From Thiohalophilus thiocyanatoxydans (GTDB taxonomy: Bacteria; Pseudomonadota; Gammaproteobacteria; UBA6429; Thiohalophilaceae), in contig NZ_SOQX01000004.1 in assembly GCF_004366735.1 (NCBI RefSeq), positions 1-64,000 of the forward strand: a stretch of DNA of 64,000 bases, read 5' to 3'. The notes beneath the pieces were generated by a model. That model was given only the letters and a program-made list of their open reading frames with translations, made no database searches and was not told the origin of the DNA. This document shows, in pieces, positions 26,947 to 34,149 of this stretch. Each line of letters opens with the position of its first letter. Position 1 is the stretch's first letter. The translations under genes and the position numbers were made by a program.

Positions 26947-27121
26947 TATTATTCCCTCACCTGCAAGGGGAGGGTAAGGGCGGGGTGATACAAATTAGCC
27001 CCTGCAAACCCACCTCGTCCCTGCCCGAAGGGCCCGGGCAGGGGCCTTGGTCCGGTGACAAACGCGAACCATTTGCATTATCATCAGTCACTGCCTCTTA
27101 TCATTGAGTAATCACACCGCC

Positions 27122-27760
27122 ATGACCACAAAACTTGTACAAAAACACCTTTTTAAAGGCACCCGGGAATTCGAAATAGTCAATGACGTTATTAATGTGC
27201 GCATGAAAACGCCATTTAAAGAGGAGAAAATCACGGTGGGGTTGACAGTCCTGGATCCTGAGCCTGTTATTAATAAACCCTATCTTGAGTTTAATGGTCG
27301 TGCCGAGTCCGAGCCTATGCTGTCCCTGTTTCTGGATAAACCAAACACTGAAGAATTTAACGCTTTTGTTGTGGCGTTGCAGAAACAAATACTGGCCGCA
27401 GGTAATGCTGTTTCCGGGCTTGATGCGGACTCTTACCCTGCAGGGATCGCTGGAAACGTTTATGAGGAGCCGCCGGAATTCGAGGAGTCTGATCAGAAAC
27501 GATTTAAATACAACAATAAATCGATTGATGCGGCGAAACTCGAGAGCGCGATTCAGATGCTGGAGAGGTATGTCGAAGACGAAGAAATCAAGCCGTTGCT
27601 CTTTGCCATGAACGCCCTGAAAGACGATCCGAAAAATGAATCCTGTATGGAGCAGGTGGTGAATGCATTCAATGAGCTGGGAATTGTGCAGGGTGCGGTA
27701 TTAACGTACGCACCCTACATCAGTGTATTGCTTATGGATGATCCCTATGGCGATAATTAA
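27122..27760 (+). CDS. Hypothetical protein, 212 aa
   Basis: An acidic soluble protein, MTTKLVQKHLFKGTREFEIV at the start. The first half is beta-strand-rich and the C-terminal third helical (YVEDEEIKPLLFAMNALKDD, MEQVVNAFNELGIVQGAVL), ending in DDPYGDN. Start at ATG 27122, because the 18-nt upstream extension begins with TTG and has no ribosome site. The gene is AT-richer than its neighbours. No family recognised; convergent with senB. Confidence 0.65.
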   Translation: MTTKLVQKHLFKGTREFEIVNDVINVRMKTPFKEEKITVGLTVLDPEPVINKPYLEFNGRAESEPMLSLFLDKPNTEEFNAFVVALQKQILAAGNAVSGLDADSYPAGIAGNVYEEPPEFEESDQKRFKYNNKSIDAAKLESAIQMLERYVEDEEIKPLLFAMNALKDDPKNESCMEQVVNAFNELGIVQGAVLTYAPYISVLLMDDPYGDN

Positions 27761-27817: not shown

Positions 27818-28765
27818 TCAGAGCTGGCTTAGAAGGTTTCTCCACCCCCGGCTCTCGTTTTCAGGTGTGAATAACGGTTGTTTGGCAATACAGGCCTGTT
27901 CGAGTTTTTCGTGGAAGCTGTTGTCGGTTTCCGCCTTCAGCATAAGATCAGCCAGGGCCTGCTCATTTTCCACCGGATAATAGCCAGGGTAGTCTTCGCC
28001 AAGCAGCCCGAGGGATCCTTCAATGTCCGAGGCGATTACCGGGATCCCGGCTACAACGGCTTCGGAAATGACATTGGCTCCGCCCTCCATGCGCGAGGGT
28101 AACACCAGCAGATTGGTCCGCTGGTATATCTGTCTGATTCGGTGATGGGCAATTTCATCATGCCAGGTGTAGCGGGGATTGGCCTCCATCTCCATGCGTG
28201 CCAGCTTTGCCCACTCGTCGCTGTGCGCTTTGCCGTACTGATGTACCTTGATACGGCTGCTGTCTGGCAGGTGGCGGGCAGCGAGTGCCGGCCGCAGGGG
28301 GTCCTTTTCCTCACGCAAATGTCCCATTACCGAGATATGGAAATAACGCTTGTATGGCTGGCGTTTGGCAATGGGCCTGGCCGACTGGTAAATGACGTGC
28401 ATCTTGTGCCGCGCATCCGGCGGCAGTGTATTGCTGATGAGATCGTGCAAACCGACCAGATGACTGGCCAATCGGATCGATTGCAGGGTGATATCGGGAT
28501 GAGTATGTATAAAGCGGTAGGCATCGGTACCTGTGATGGCAACAATAAGGGGGCGCCGGGGAAATGCCTCGGCGAATTGCTGAATGGAGCTGGCGCTGCG
28601 CCAGGCATGTAACGCGATCATAAGATCCGCGTTCTGCCCGCTGAACCCGGTGGTGATCTCCACCCGATGACCGAACGAGGTCAGGATCGCGGCCCAGCGA
28701 GCGGCGGTGGCCCGGTTGCCGGCCCGTGATTTCGGTGGTGCAGGTGTGACCAGAATGATGCGCAT
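27818..28765 (-). CDS. senB: Selenosugar synthase SenB (TIGR04348-type glycosyltransferase)
   Basis: 315 aa GT-B-fold glycosyltransferase. MRIILVTPAPPKSRAGNRAT is a characteristic start for this group. GHLREEKDPLRPALAAR is the donor-domain opening, and LVLPSRMEGGANVISEAVVAGIPVIASD is the GT4-like EGG...E donor-binding motif. In the known pathway SenB makes a selenosugar from selenophosphate and a UDP-sugar. The assignment rests on sequence style plus the divergent senA and adjacent selD fusion; alone it would be an ordinary glycosyltransferase. Confidence 0.87.
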   Translation of the reverse strand: MRIILVTPAPPKSRAGNRATAARWAAILTSFGHRVEITTGFSGQNADLMIALHAWRSASSIQQFAEAFPRRPLIVAITGTDAYRFIHTHPDITLQSIRLASHLVGLHDLISNTLPPDARHKMHVIYQSARPIAKRQPYKRYFHISVMGHLREEKDPLRPALAARHLPDSSRIKVHQYGKAHSDEWAKLARMEMEANPRYTWHDEIAHHRIRQIYQRTNLLVLPSRMEGGANVISEAVVAGIPVIASDIEGSLGLLGEDYPGYYPVENEQALADLMLKAETDNSFHEKLEQACIAKQPLFTPENESRGWRNLLSQL

Positions 28766-28800
28766 AATCGATTAGGTTAATCCGGTAAAAAAATTATTGT

Positions 28801-28827
28801 TTTCAGAATCACATGTTGTTTCTGAAA
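28801..28827. promoter_or_regulatory. Inverted repeat between senB and senA (candidate operator)
   Basis: TTTCAGAA (28801-28808), an 11-nt spacer and TTCTGAAA (28820-28827) form perfect 8-bp arms in the 172-bp divergent spacer. The position, near the senB start and upstream of senA, suits a dimeric regulator controlling both directions. No regulator gene is adjacent, so the binding protein is unknown. Confidence 0.45.
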
Positions 28828-28937
28828 GGGCGTTGCGGGTCCGGCTCCACAACTTTATACTGATTCTATCGCACAAGAATCCTGTCATTCATTGATTTGC
28901 TTGTTGGGCAGAATACAATAATCCGAGTAACTCAGGC

Positions 28938-30236
28938 ATGTATAAACTTAATCCGGATCAAATTGCAAAGCAAATCGAGGATGCGCACCAGCGCAGCATG
29001 GCGCTTGTTGACGGTCTGTCTTCGGAACAATTAATGGGTCCCAGGTTGGCCATCGTCAATCCGTTACGCTGGGAGATCGGCCACGCGGCCTATTTTTACG
29101 AGTACTGGGTGTTGCGCCAGCATCTGCACAGGCCTCCGATCCGTGAGGATGCCGATCAGCTGTACGACTCGATTTCGATCGCCCATGATGAACGCTGGGA
29201 CCTGCCGTTGCCGACGATGCGGCAGACACTGGAATATATCCAGACGGTCAAAGAACGGGTAAAAGCCTGTCTGGCAAACGGCGAGGATGCGCAACGGGAT
29301 TACCTCGCGCAATACGCGGTCTTTCATCACGACATGCACAACGAGGCCTATACCTATACCCGCCAGACACTGGACTATCCCGCCCCCGATATTGGCAAGC
29401 CGGGATACCGTATACTGGATGCCGGCGGACTGGAAGGGGATGTAAAAATACCCGGTGGCGAGTTTATGCTGGGAGCCAGGCCAACAGATGGTTTTGTCTT
29501 CGATAACGAAAAATGGGCACATCCTGTCGAACTCGAATCGTTTGATATTGCTAGAGCGGCGGTGAGTAACGGTGATTATCTGCGTTTCGTCGAAGCCGAT
29601 GGTTATAACAAGCGTGAATACTGGGATGAAGAAGGCTGGGAATGGCGTAACAAGGCCCGGCTCGAACATCCCGTATACTGGCGTCTTGATGCGGATGGCT
29701 GGAAGATAAAGCAGTTCGATCAGTGGCAGCCGATGCCTGTGAATGCGGCGTTGATCCACGTCTGCTGGCATGAAGCCCAGGCCTATTGTCGCTGGGCCGG
29801 CAGACGCCTGCCGACGGAAGCCGAGTGGGAAGCCGCGGCAGCGGCTGAACCCTCGGCAGATGGCCGTACCTTATCACCGGTCAAACGCCGTTTTCCCTGG
29901 GGAGATAATCCGCCACGACCGGATCAGGCCAATCTGGATGGCTACGCGCTGGGCGTAGTGGATGTCGGGGCGCATGCTGCGGGCGACAGTGCTTTTGGTT
30001 GCCGGCAAATGATGGGTAACGTCTGGGAATGGACCCAGGACACGTTTATGCCCTTCCCCGGTTTTGAGCCCGATATGTATCAGGACTATTCGCAGCCATT
30101 GTTCGGGATAACCCGGGTTCTGCGCGGCGGTGCCTGGCCCACCCGCGGGCGGCTGATTCGCAATACCTGGCGGACCTACTATGGTCCTGAGCGAAATGAT
30201 GTTTTCGCCGGATTTCGTACCTGCGCCGAACGTTGA
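28938..30236 (+). CDS. senA: Selenoneine synthase SenA (EgtB-like non-haem iron enzyme)
   Basis: 432 aa with EgtB architecture. The N-terminal DinB-like domain has WEIGHAAYFYEYWVLR (H49) and FHHDMHNEAYTY (H130 and H134), matching the three-histidine iron site. The C-terminal FGE-sulfatase domain holds FMLGA, RRLPTEAEWEAAA, MGNVWEWTQD and RVLRGGAWPTRGRLIRN. SenA couples hercynine to a selenosugar using O2, forming the C-Se bond of selenoneine. The SenA call over EgtB is inference from the divergent senB and downstream selD. Hercynine must come from an EgtD that is not in this window. Confidence 0.87.
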   Translation: MYKLNPDQIAKQIEDAHQRSMALVDGLSSEQLMGPRLAIVNPLRWEIGHAAYFYEYWVLRQHLHRPPIREDADQLYDSISIAHDERWDLPLPTMRQTLEYIQTVKERVKACLANGEDAQRDYLAQYAVFHHDMHNEAYTYTRQTLDYPAPDIGKPGYRILDAGGLEGDVKIPGGEFMLGARPTDGFVFDNEKWAHPVELESFDIARAAVSNGDYLRFVEADGYNKREYWDEEGWEWRNKARLEHPVYWRLDADGWKIKQFDQWQPMPVNAALIHVCWHEAQAYCRWAGRRLPTEAEWEAAAAAEPSADGRTLSPVKRRFPWGDNPPRPDQANLDGYALGVVDVGAHAAGDSAFGCRQMMGNVWEWTQDTFMPFPGFEPDMYQDYSQPLFGITRVLRGGAWPTRGRLIRNTWRTYYGPERNDVFAGFRTCAER

Positions 30237-30259
30237 GTTGACAGACCGGTTGAGTTGTT

Positions 30260-32521
30260 ATGCATAAGATGGACGTCCCTGTTGTCAAAGATCTGGTCCT
30301 CATCGGCGGGGGGCATTCCCACGTTTCGGTTTTAAGGCGACTCGGCATGCGACCGGTCCCGGGGTTGCGGGTTACTGTGGTGACCCGGGATATTCACACG
30401 CCGTATTCCGGTATGCTGCCCGGTTTTATCGCCGGTCATTATGACTATGACGAGTGTCATATCGACCTGGGACCGCTGGCCCGCTTTGCGGGCGCACGTC
30501 TTTATCATGCCGAAGTCGAATCCTTGGATCTGGACAATAAAATCGTGCATGCCGCCGGGCGCCCACCAATCGGGTATGACATTTTGTCTGTCAACACCGG
30601 TTCACGGCCGTCCAGTGTCGATATCCCCGGTGTGGATGACTTCGCATTGTCCGTCAAGCCCATCGACGTTTTCCTGAATAAATGGGATCAACTGATCGAG
30701 CAGGTTCGTGCAGGCAAGAGACCTTTTCGCATTGTCGTCGTTGGCGGTGGAGCCGGTGGCGTGGAGCTGGCGTTAGCGACGCAGCTGCGGTTGCAAACAA
30801 TCCTTAAAGCGGCTGGCAAGGATCCCGAAAACGTGGTTTACACGATTATCAGTGCCAGCGACGACATCATGCACATGCATAACGCCGGAGTGCAGAAACG
30901 TTTCGAGCGAATACTGGCGCAACGTAATATCACGGTCAAAACCGCAACACAAGTCACGCAAGTCAAAGCGGACAAGGTGCTTACCGCCGACGGCAAGGCG
31001 TATGCGGCGGATGCCGTACTCTGGGTTACCACGGCGTCGGCGCCGGAGTGGCCGGCCAAAGCCGGTCTGGCGGTGGATGAAGCGGGTTTTATCCAGGTGG
31101 ATGAACACCTGCAATCCCTGTCACACAAAGATGTATTTGCAGCGGGAGATATCGCCTCCTTGACCGATTCCCGTCCCAAGTCCGGCGTCTTTGCTGTTCG
31201 ACAGGGACCGGTGCTCGCGCACAACCTTCCGGCTGCTGCCACTGGCAGGCGTATGCGTCGCTACCGGCCACAGAAGAACTTCCTGGGGCTGATCAGCACG
31301 GGCGATAAATACGCGGTGGCGTCACGCGGTAACTGGTCTTATGAATCGGCCCGGTTGTGGAGTATCAAGGACTGGATCGATCGTCGCTTCATGCAAAAGT
31401 ATAACGAGCTGCCCGAGATGGATGAGGAAGGCAGTCCCGAGCTGGCTGCCGGGATCGCCGATGCGGCGGCGATAAAGGAACTATCCACCCTGGCGATGCG
31501 TTGTGGTGGTTGCGGTGCGAAGGTTGGCGCCACGGTACTGTCCCGCGTTATGCAACGCCTGCCTAACACACAACGTGACGATGTCTTGATCGGCCGGGAT
31601 TCTCCCGATGACTGCGCCATGTTGACCGTGCCGAAAGACAAGGTCATGGTGCAGAGTGTTGATTATTTTCGTGCTTTCATCGAAGACAGCTATACATTTG
31701 GCGCCATTGCCGCCAACCATGCGCTGGGCGATGTGTTTGCCATGGGGGCCGAGCCGCAATCGGCATTGGCCATTGCCACAGTCCCCTACGGTCGTGAACG
31801 TATTGTGGAAGAAACGCTGTATGACGTGCTGGCCGGTGCCATGCACATTCTCGAACCTTCCGGCGCCGTGCTGGCCGGAGGCCATTCCAGCGAAGGCGCG
31901 GAGCTGGCTTTTGGCCTGACCGTCAACGGCCTGATTGATCCCGATAAAGCCTGGCGCAAGGAGGGTTTGCAGCCGGGCGATGCCCTGGTGCTGACCAAAC
32001 CCATCGGCACGGGAACGCTGTTTGCGGCAGAGATGCGTGGCAAAGCCCGGGGGCGCTGGGTCGACGCGGCCATCCAGTCGATGCTGGTCTCCAGTCAACA
32101 GGCCGCACACTGTTTACAGCGCTACGGGGCTACCTCATGTACCGATCTGACCGGCTTCGGACTGGTGGGTCATTTGATTGAGATGACCCGGGCCTCGGAA
32201 GTTGATGCCACCCTGTATATGGATGCCTTGCCGTTACTGGATGGCGCCCTGCAAACCGTTGAGGCAGGTATTCTGTCTTCCCTGCAGCCGCAAAACCTGC
32301 GGCTGCGGCGTGCCATCGACGATATCGAACGCGTGTCACGTCATCCGGCATATCCTTTGTTATTCGATCCGCAAACCGCCGGCGGCCTGCTCGCCGGCGT
32401 TCCCCGGGATCGGGTGAGTGCCTGTATTGAAGAGCTGCATCAAATGGGCTATCCGGCGGCGGTAACGATCGGCCAGATCGAGCCACGTTCGGACCGGGAA
32501 GCGCCCATTCGCATCCAGTAA
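30260..32521 (+). CDS. selD: FAD/NAD oxidoreductase-SelD fusion (selenophosphate synthetase, SenC-like)
   Basis: 753 aa. Residues 1-385 are an NDH-2-like FAD oxidoreductase (LVLIGGGHSHVSVLRRLGM; VVVGGGAGGVELALA; DVFAAGDIAS). From about 405 comes a full SelD: LAMRCGGCGAKVGATVLSR with the reactive residue as Cys415 (not selenocysteine), then GRDSPDDCAML, DYFRAFIEDSYTFGAIAANH, CTDLTGFGLVGHL and DPQTAGGLLAGV. SelD converts selenide and ATP to selenophosphate; the fused domain may help supply reduced selenium. It sits 23 bp after senA. The product could also serve tRNA selenation or Sec synthesis elsewhere. Confidence 0.92.
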   Translation: MHKMDVPVVKDLVLIGGGHSHVSVLRRLGMRPVPGLRVTVVTRDIHTPYSGMLPGFIAGHYDYDECHIDLGPLARFAGARLYHAEVESLDLDNKIVHAAGRPPIGYDILSVNTGSRPSSVDIPGVDDFALSVKPIDVFLNKWDQLIEQVRAGKRPFRIVVVGGGAGGVELALATQLRLQTILKAAGKDPENVVYTIISASDDIMHMHNAGVQKRFERILAQRNITVKTATQVTQVKADKVLTADGKAYAADAVLWVTTASAPEWPAKAGLAVDEAGFIQVDEHLQSLSHKDVFAAGDIASLTDSRPKSGVFAVRQGPVLAHNLPAAATGRRMRRYRPQKNFLGLISTGDKYAVASRGNWSYESARLWSIKDWIDRRFMQKYNELPEMDEEGSPELAAGIADAAAIKELSTLAMRCGGCGAKVGATVLSRVMQRLPNTQRDDVLIGRDSPDDCAMLTVPKDKVMVQSVDYFRAFIEDSYTFGAIAANHALGDVFAMGAEPQSALAIATVPYGRERIVEETLYDVLAGAMHILEPSGAVLAGGHSSEGAELAFGLTVNGLIDPDKAWRKEGLQPGDALVLTKPIGTGTLFAAEMRGKARGRWVDAAIQSMLVSSQQAAHCLQRYGATSCTDLTGFGLVGHLIEMTRASEVDATLYMDALPLLDGALQTVEAGILSSLQPQNLRLRRAIDDIERVSRHPAYPLLFDPQTAGGLLAGVPRDRVSACIEELHQMGYPAAVTIGQIEPRSDREAPIRIQ

Positions 32522-32625: not shown

Positions 32626-32793
32626 GGTTTTCAAAAGGCAATAGCGCGATGCGCTTCTTTGGCTTCTATTGAGAATGATCAATTTGCTGTTGTCCCGCAT
32701 AGATGACGTGGTCTTTCAGGGTTTAAAGTGCCTGTATCGGGCTCCATGTCCTTTTGCAAGATAGAAACTGCAGACTGTTCTGAAGGAGGGCAT

Positions 32794-34149
32794 ATGTTTC
32801 TGGAAAAAATCAAATCACCCGGATTGGCTCATCTGTCGTATGTGATTGGCGCAGGCGGCCAGGCGGCGGTGATCGATCCGCGTCGCGACATTGAAGTTTA
32901 TGAGGAAATCGCTGCGGCGAATAACGCACGTATTAGCTGTATATTTGAAACCCACCGCAACGAGGATCTGGTCTCCGGCGCCGGCCTGCTGGCCGAGCGT
33001 ACCGGGGCGACGGTCTATCACGGTCCCAACGCGGCCGGCGAGGTGCGCTATGCCGAAACCGCGCGCGATGGCCAGGAAGTGCAACTGGGCGATCTGCGTC
33101 TGAAGGTCCTGGAGACGCCCGGTCATACGGACGACAGTATTTCCATCGCGGTCTATGACAATGCCAGTGGCAAGGAGGCGGTTGCCGTGTTTACCGGCGA
33201 TGCCCTGTTCATCGGTGATGTCGGTCGGACCGACTTTTATCCGGAGCGGGCCGAGGAGGTGGCCGGACTGCTGTACGACAGCCTGCAACGGATTCTCGCC
33301 CTGGGTGATCAGGCGATCATGCTGCCGGCTCACGGCGCCGGCTCGGTCTGCGGCAGCGGCATGGCGGATCGCGAGTTCTCGACGCTGGGGCACGAACGGC
33401 TCAACAATCCCCGCCTGCAGATCACCGGGCGCGACGAATTTATCAAGGTGAAGGTGGCCGAACATCACTATCAGCCGCCGTACTTCCGGCTCATGGAGGC
33501 GCTTAACCTCAGTGGCACCGATCCCATGGACCCCAACCCGGCCGCGCTGGGCGTCGAAGATATCAAGAGCCTCGGTGAGCAGGTGCTCCGGGTCGACGTC
33601 CGCAGCGCCGAAGCCTATGCCTCGGCGCATCTGCCGGATTCGCTGTGCGTGCCTGAAGAGATGATCCCGGCATTCGCCGGCTGGTTGATCAAACCGGAGC
33701 AGCGACTGGTGCTGATCGCCGAGAATGCCGAACATGCCTGGCAGGCTGCCCGTCATCTCGGCCGCATCGGCTTTGATCGGGTCGAGGGTTATCTCGCCGG
33801 CATCATGGACTGGGTGACCGCCGGAGAGCCATTTGCCAGCGTCGATTTCGTCGATACGGCTACCGTCGAGCAACGGTTGAACAAACCGTCCGTCGACTGG
33901 CAGTTACTGGATGTCCGCGGACTTGAAGAAGTCGAGACGCAGCGCATGCCAGAGGCCATACATGTCTATGTCGGCGAATTGCCTGATAAACTCAAAGAGC
34001 TGGACAGCAACAAGGCCTGGACCGTTATGTGCGGCAGCGGCCAGCGTGCCGCCATCGCGGCCAGTGTGCTGGAGCGCGGCGGATATAACAACGTGGATGT
34101 GTACCTGGGCTCCATGACAGCCTGGCAACAACAGAAACACGCGGCATGA
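32794..34149 (+). CDS. MBL-fold hydrolase/persulfide-dioxygenase-like protein with two rhodanese domains
   Basis: 451 aa. The MBL domain (1-240) has FETHRNEDLVSGAG instead of the canonical THxHxDH, yet keeps TPGHTDDS, FTGDALFIGDVGRTDF and LPAHGAGS. Rhodanese 1 (about 260-350) has RLVLIAENAEHAW, with no Cys at the active loop. Rhodanese 2 (about 365-450) has WTVMCGSGQRAAIAASVL with Cys413 as the likely persulfide carrier. Proteins of this architecture handle persulfides and thiosulfate. GAAGGAGG before ATG 32794 fixes the start. Next to selD, a selenium role is conceivable but unproven. Confidence 0.85.
   Translation: MFLEKIKSPGLAHLSYVIGAGGQAAVIDPRRDIEVYEEIAAANNARISCIFETHRNEDLVSGAGLLAERTGATVYHGPNAAGEVRYAETARDGQEVQLGDLRLKVLETPGHTDDSISIAVYDNASGKEAVAVFTGDALFIGDVGRTDFYPERAEEVAGLLYDSLQRILALGDQAIMLPAHGAGSVCGSGMADREFSTLGHERLNNPRLQITGRDEFIKVKVAEHHYQPPYFRLMEALNLSGTDPMDPNPAALGVEDIKSLGEQVLRVDVRSAEAYASAHLPDSLCVPEEMIPAFAGWLIKPEQRLVLIAENAEHAWQAARHLGRIGFDRVEGYLAGIMDWVTAGEPFASVDFVDTATVEQRLNKPSVDWQLLDVRGLEEVETQRMPEAIHVYVGELPDKLKELDSNKAWTVMCGSGQRAAIAASVLERGGYNNVDVYLGSMTAWQQQKHAA

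Follow-up and report, generated by a model that had tools for sequence, protein, structure and literature searches.

A very likely complete selenoneine biosynthesis locus with an NDH-2-like/SelD fusion in Thiohalophilus thiocyanatoxydans

The window analysed here, a stretch of 64,000 nucleotides at the start of contig NZ_SOQX01000004.1 of Thiohalophilus thiocyanatoxydans, carries at 27818-32521 three intact open reading frames (ORFs) related to the genes for biosynthesis of selenoneine, a selenium antioxidant: senB, senA and a gene fusing SelD to an N-terminal oxidoreductase domain resembling type II NADH dehydrogenase (NDH-2) and predicted to use flavin adenine dinucleotide (FAD) and NAD(P)H (Table 1). 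A preliminary description, made from the letters alone, had placed these three genes together at the same positions, and both the ORFs and the NCBIfam scores bear this out. SenB matches TIGR04348 with 418.4 bits (cut-off 300) and SenA matches NF041186 with 505.6 bits (cut-off 420), while the fusion, in a single frame, matches both TIGR03169 (Nterm_to_SelD; 485.2 bits, cut-off 310) and TIGR00476 (SelD; 295.4 bits, cut-off 125), with E-values for the parts of the locus (1e-88 to 1e-152) far past chance. senA and the fusion lie on one strand, 23 bp apart, and senB starts 172 bp from senA on the opposite strand.

Table 1 Features of the predicted sen locus (positions counted from the first letter of the window).
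Feature	Position	Strand	Length	Family or residues
senB, predicted selenosugar synthase	27818-28765	minus	315 aa	TIGR04348
senB-senA intergenic region, divergent	28766-28937		172 bp	
senA, predicted selenoneine synthase	28938-30236	plus	432 aa	NF041186; iron site H49/H130/H134, HxxMH, pocket Y384/T413/Y414
NDH-2-like/SelD fusion, whole ORF	30260-32521	plus	753 aa	
NDH-2-like FAD/NAD(P)H oxidoreductase domain, fusion N-terminus	30290-31402	plus	residues 11-381	TIGR03169
SelD domain of fusion (predicted senC function)	31496-32410	plus	residues 413-717	C415-G-G-C418-G-A-K421

The SenB residues discussed in the available text of two reports on Variovorax paradoxus (N20, T23, K158, R155, E231, E239 and the His58-Asp86 pair; PMC10891094, PMC10702425) all have counterparts in the window protein: by alignment, V. 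paradoxus N20, T23, H58, D86, R155, K158, E231 and E239 correspond to N17, T20, H53, D81, R151, K154, E227 and E235. These counterparts of catalytic and uridine diphosphate (UDP)-binding residues are invariant across a 22-row alignment, and the EGGAHV motif has the form EGGANV in the window as well as in the consensus of the alignment.

In SenA, the three-His iron site named in the preliminary description (H49, H130, H134) is present, and its residues align with the three His columns that bind iron in EgtB, SenA and OvsA. The HxxMH motif, with Met, is found in 88/88 SenA-type rows (some loci being entered twice), while 3/3 EgtBs have Gln instead (HxxQH). Three further columns, which we take to line the hercynine pocket, read Y384/T413/Y414 in the window, Y/N/F in V. 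paradoxus SenA and, among the three EgtBs, Y/N/W or Y/N/F; M/Q/A is found in OvsA 8u41, in an OvsA-like protein of genome G218 and in Cocleimonas locus L096. A second deposited OvsA sequence, 8ux5, reads Y/N/F here and is presumably an engineered variant. Over the 88 SenA-type rows the pocket is Y/N/Y in 41, Y/N/F in 29, Y/T/Y in 15 (the window and its near relatives, plus a second group, L051 and L052) and M/Q/A in one (L096), with two rows lacking letters at these columns. In a tree of 50 rows (47 SenA/OvsA and three EgtBs, one of the latter on a long branch), the SenA/OvsA rows split from the EgtBs at 98/98. The three M/Q/A proteins (8u41, G218 and L096) form an OvsA branch (100/100), and the window enzyme lies outside it, in a 13-row SenA clade (100/99) where its nearest relative is L072 (77% identity).

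The preliminary description had noted that EgtD was missing from the window and had left the supply of hercynine open. The former stands, insofar as the one EgtD match falls elsewhere in the genome, no EgtD family search having been confined to the window; the latter does not. The genome, 2.9 Mb in size and put at 100% completeness by the tool used, has a single match to EgtD (G000:C2:403264-404151; TIGR03438, 407.4 bits vs cut-off 290.9), directly behind an ordinary egtB whose product matches EgtB 8qf6 with 524.5 bits. With hercynine coming from one EgtD, ergothioneine and selenoneine would share a precursor. SenB is above cut-off in 22 of 369 sampled genomes of the class, this one included, and EgtD is above cut-off in 22/22 of these. 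Near relatives (L043, L045, L073, L074 and L075) carry egtD between senA and the fusion, and among 80 named SenB loci it can be seen in 16. In L152 of genome G218, an egtD frame (L152:1203-2387) is preceded in frame by ~33 residues that are 51% identical to the N-terminus of window-type SenA; it looks like the remnant of a senA-egtD operon from which senA was lost by deletion.

Markers of other selenium uses are not above cut-off in the genome: SelA has no match here (0/22 sen genomes), SelU has only a 21-bit match (above cut-off in 10/22) and YqeB is not above cut-off (0/22). By the markers tested, selenoneine is therefore the only selenium use of this genome. Four SelD matches were found, the fused SelD alone being above cut-off. 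Twelve of the 22 sen genomes, this one among them, show none of SelA, SelU and YqeB above cut-off, although two of the twelve (G333 and G343) are 82-85% complete. The genome thus offers a setting in which the fusion can be studied apart from the selenocysteine (Sec) and selenouridine pathways. SenB is not above cut-off in three other sampled members of the same family (G124, G239 and G335), so the sen trait looks patchy.

The preliminary description had singled out the divergent gene order and the fused SelD as departures from a simple operon, but comparison with other loci does not sustain this. The comparison took in 80 named SenB loci, the highest-ranking 80 of at least 562 confirmed ones. 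A SenA-type gene can be seen in 68 of them and is adjacent to and divergent from senB in 67, the sole non-divergent one being OvsA-like (L096). Seven loci lack SenA despite at least 5.9 kb of upstream sequence, and five end too near senB to judge. An NDH-SelD fusion is present in 47/80, behind senA as in the window in 17 and converging on senB in 30. The other 33, some of which end close by, comprise six with SelD but no in-frame oxidoreductase, six with just the oxidoreductase, most of them truncated by the end of a contig, and 21 with neither. By hand count of the 21 class loci besides the window (at least six of which recur among the 80), senA is divergent in 20 and a fusion is visible in 15. 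Divergent senB and senA together with a fused SelD are common, the fusion is already published, and the locus is an ordinary example of a known pathway, not an oddity as it could easily be misread. It has the three enzyme families of the sen cluster of V. paradoxus (SenA, SenB, SenC), with matching catalytic residues. In L039, whose SenA groups with that of V. paradoxus (100/100), senA is likewise divergent from senB; however, SelD is separate and behind senB, with an NDH-like gene separate again 1.6 kb further on, whereas in the window SelD is fused and behind senA.

In the SelD half of the fusion, C415, C418, K421 and C722 are invariant in 55/55 fusions (window included) and C627 is kept in 54/55; C418 and K421 align with Escherichia coli SelD C17 and K20, which we take to be essential. 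The oxidoreductase half has no conserved Cys over the same 55 fusions (C66 in 20/55; a second column in 32/55, Ala in the window), which speaks against this half working by itself as a disulfide reductase or a sulfide:quinone reductase. A predicted model of the fusion (predicted local distance difference test score, pLDDT, 87.3; 38 sequences) places the CxxC in a loop (415-422) with pLDDT <50 that is mobile or unsure. Its oxidoreductase half best matches type II NADH dehydrogenases (YjlD, TMt 0.88), then sulfide:quinone reductases (0.72-0.76), and its SelD half matches SelD structures (2yye, TMt 0.75; 3u0o, 0.79-0.81). The link between the two halves is kept in unfused cases, with SelD and an NDH-like gene 1.6 kb apart in L039 and a 391-aa NDH-like gene beside senB in L135.

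Taken together, the family scores, motifs, gene context and genomic source of hercynine point to a complete and intact selenoneine (sen) locus, a reading that we hold to be very likely and that agrees with the proposal of the preliminary description. Following the reaction sequence in the literature (PMC9814287; also the available text of PMC10702425, PMC10891094 and PMC10903977), the SelD half of the fusion would convert selenide and ATP to selenophosphate, and SenB would combine the selenium with a UDP-sugar to form a selenosugar. As a non-haem iron enzyme, SenA would then couple this oxidatively to hercynine supplied by the single EgtD of the distant egtB-egtD pair, and the resulting selenoxide would break apart and be reduced, so that the product expected in this organism is selenoneine.

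Several results weigh against this reading. OvsA (298 and 292 bits) outscores EgtB (246) and V. paradoxus SenA (219-220) when the window SenA is searched by phmmer against solved structures, and T413 takes the place of the usual Asn, as in 15/88 rows. Comparison of the enzymes with curated families and EgtB outgroups, as the preliminary description had suggested, set SenA apart from EgtB by the scores and the 98/98 split, but approximately unbiased (AU) tests did not reject at 0.05 trees in which the window SenA was forced together with the EgtBs (p=0.072) or with the OvsAs (p=0.066). When the whole 13-row clade, a grouping named after the tree was seen, was forced with the EgtBs or the OvsAs, p was 0.434 and 0.693 respectively, and the tree joining this clade to the OvsAs outscored the free tree; we read the EgtB constraint as mainly shifting the root within SenA, with little bearing on the window enzyme. 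A SenB above cut-off does not by itself prove selenoneine either, as loci L127 and L147 (see below) illustrate, and this genome, G000, has no selenate-type importer (TIGR04553) above cut-off that would account for selenium uptake.

As the top solved-structure match, OvsA was treated as a serious rival, one that the preliminary description had not considered. OvsA puts selenium on histidine toward ovoselenol, and in this case the SenA-like enzyme would transfer the selenium of the selenosugar to histidine. The iron enzymes are homologous, genomes with senB and SelD can contain OvsA-like genes (L096, G218), and, besides the phmmer scores and the AU result for the window row, the 13-row-clade test allows more than one position for OvsA among the SenA lineages. 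However, the window pocket is Y/T/Y, not the M/Q/A of the well-supported OvsA branch, and NF041186, exceeded in the window, scores 410.8 on the OvsA-like protein of G218, under its cut-off. A methyltransferase of the OvoA-C-terminal type, which we infer to be the partner of OvsA, is not above cut-off in G000 (weak matches up to 30 bits); it is present in 1/22 sen genomes, one that carries an OvsA-like gene as well. The presence of egtD inside sen operons of near relatives also speaks against OvsA. On these active-site and context grounds OvsA was rejected as the identity of the window enzyme, and we consider it very improbable. That the gene is instead a second EgtB making ergothioneine, with the adjoining selenium genes serving another use, is extremely unlikely: fold, three-His iron site and hercynine acceptor are the same, and the AU test left the EgtB placement standing, but the TIGR03440 (EgtB) score of 319.5 bits is under the cut-off of 360 whereas that for SenA is exceeded, the motif is HxxMH and not HxxQH, selenium genes adjoin, a distinct EgtB lies beside egtD elsewhere in the genome, and no other tested selenium-use marker is found. 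The pathway would be incomplete if the fused SelD were a relative of the TIGR04369 type (fusion_not_SelD) without selenophosphate synthesis. The fusion does match that family with 468.4 bits; this is far under the cut-off of 700, while the TIGR00476 score is well over its own, and C418 and K421 are retained throughout the fusions compared, so we give this explanation hardly any weight.

With a selenoneine locus as the favoured reading, the role of the fused oxidoreductase can be considered. Fusions of NADH-dehydrogenase-like domains to SelD, and their CxxC, are described in the available text of papers from 2008 and 2015 (Zhang et al., PMC2398784; Mariotti et al., PMC4561486). As in these Ndh-SelD fusions, the oxidoreductase of the window protein is N-terminal to SelD, which is of the Cys form with CxxC in its active site. 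Unlike those of Mariotti et al., where as far as the available text goes Sec machinery was present in all genomes with extended SelD genes that they saw (PMC4561486), it is found with no SelA match and no SelU above cut-off, and it is placed within a selenoneine locus. With NAD(P)H and FAD, the NDH-2-like domain probably reduces selenium to selenide at the SelD active site or holds it at that level. A more specific proposal, which is tentative and on balance doubtful, is that the fusion on its own both generates selenide, driven by NAD(P)H, and makes selenophosphate, with electrons moving from NAD(P)H by way of FAD to the SelD CxxC (C415/C418, with C627 and C722 also kept) and selenide freed in place from Cys-bound selenium, solely for a small selenium molecule; the electron path from the oxidoreductase half to the CxxC is our own suggestion. 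If so, the selenide-generating activity of the fusion would here serve selenoneine alone. Pairing of CxxC with an NDH-2-like domain makes directly testable the earlier proposal, given in the available text of Zhang et al. (PMC2432076), that an NADH dehydrogenase generates the SelD substrate.

Genome G218, from a gammaproteobacterial symbiont of Taylorina sp., carries (L152:6966-10796, L070:2479-13894, also L094) genes of the OvsA-like (M/Q/A) as well as the SenA-like (Y/N/F) type, plus an OvoA-C-terminal-type methyltransferase, a second, stand-alone SelD, and senB with an NDH-SelD fusion, and thus apparently has genes for both selenoneine and ovoselenol. The idea that it had lost selenoneine and gained ovoselenol was dropped once more sequence showed both SenA-like and OvsA-like genes.

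The SenB-family proteins of L127 and L147 score 358.8 and 355.4 bits (cut-off 300) and have the motif EGGPN. Each (L127:5252-8080, L147:8923-12532) lies beside a cysteine-synthase-like enzyme, under all CysK-type cut-offs, and a methyltransferase-like protein, with a glutaredoxin/thioredoxin-reductase-like protein also recognised by eye; no SenA or SelD is found in the stretches fetched (just 2.3 kb downstream for L127). A different thio- or selenosugar pathway is possibly over-called by the SenB model here. In L149 (5249-9957) and L151 (4411-9960), SenB and an NDH-SelD fusion occur close to a large subunit of the xanthine-dehydrogenase/CO-dehydrogenase type (recognised by eye only in L149), and these stretches show no SenA.

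A screen of 96 stretches for genes common to sen loci (102 including that of the window, minus six duplicate contigs; 30 clusters printed), in which many clusters that on visual inspection resembled antisense or overlapping frames of sen genes were set aside, identified a PhnD-type ATP-binding cassette (ABC) transporter cassette as the clearest recurrent partner besides the sen genes and egtD. Its binding protein belongs to TIGR04553 ('putative selenate ABC transporter'), above cut-off in 9/22 sen genomes. The cassette lies directly behind senB in four near relatives (L073:10165-13193, L074:10079-13144, L075:6773-8091 and L045:3841-6871), the binding protein in L074 being TIGR04553, and was not seen in the ~4.5 kb downstream in the nearest relative, L072.

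The senB-senA intergenic region contains a short inverted repeat (arms of 7-8 bp) without counterpart in the seven relatives compared, two of which have other 7-bp repeats, and a shared operator was therefore dropped; promoter- and terminator-like matches here are not above the level in shuffled sequence. No Rfam family above gathering score and no tRNA was found in the window. A 218-aa ORF (27104-27760) facing the end of senB matches nothing in Pfam or NCBIfam at E 0.001. The gene following the fusion on the same strand (32728-34149), in none of the 30 printed clusters, encodes a persulfide-dioxygenase-like protein with a metallo-beta-lactamase (MBL) fold and a rhodanese domain.

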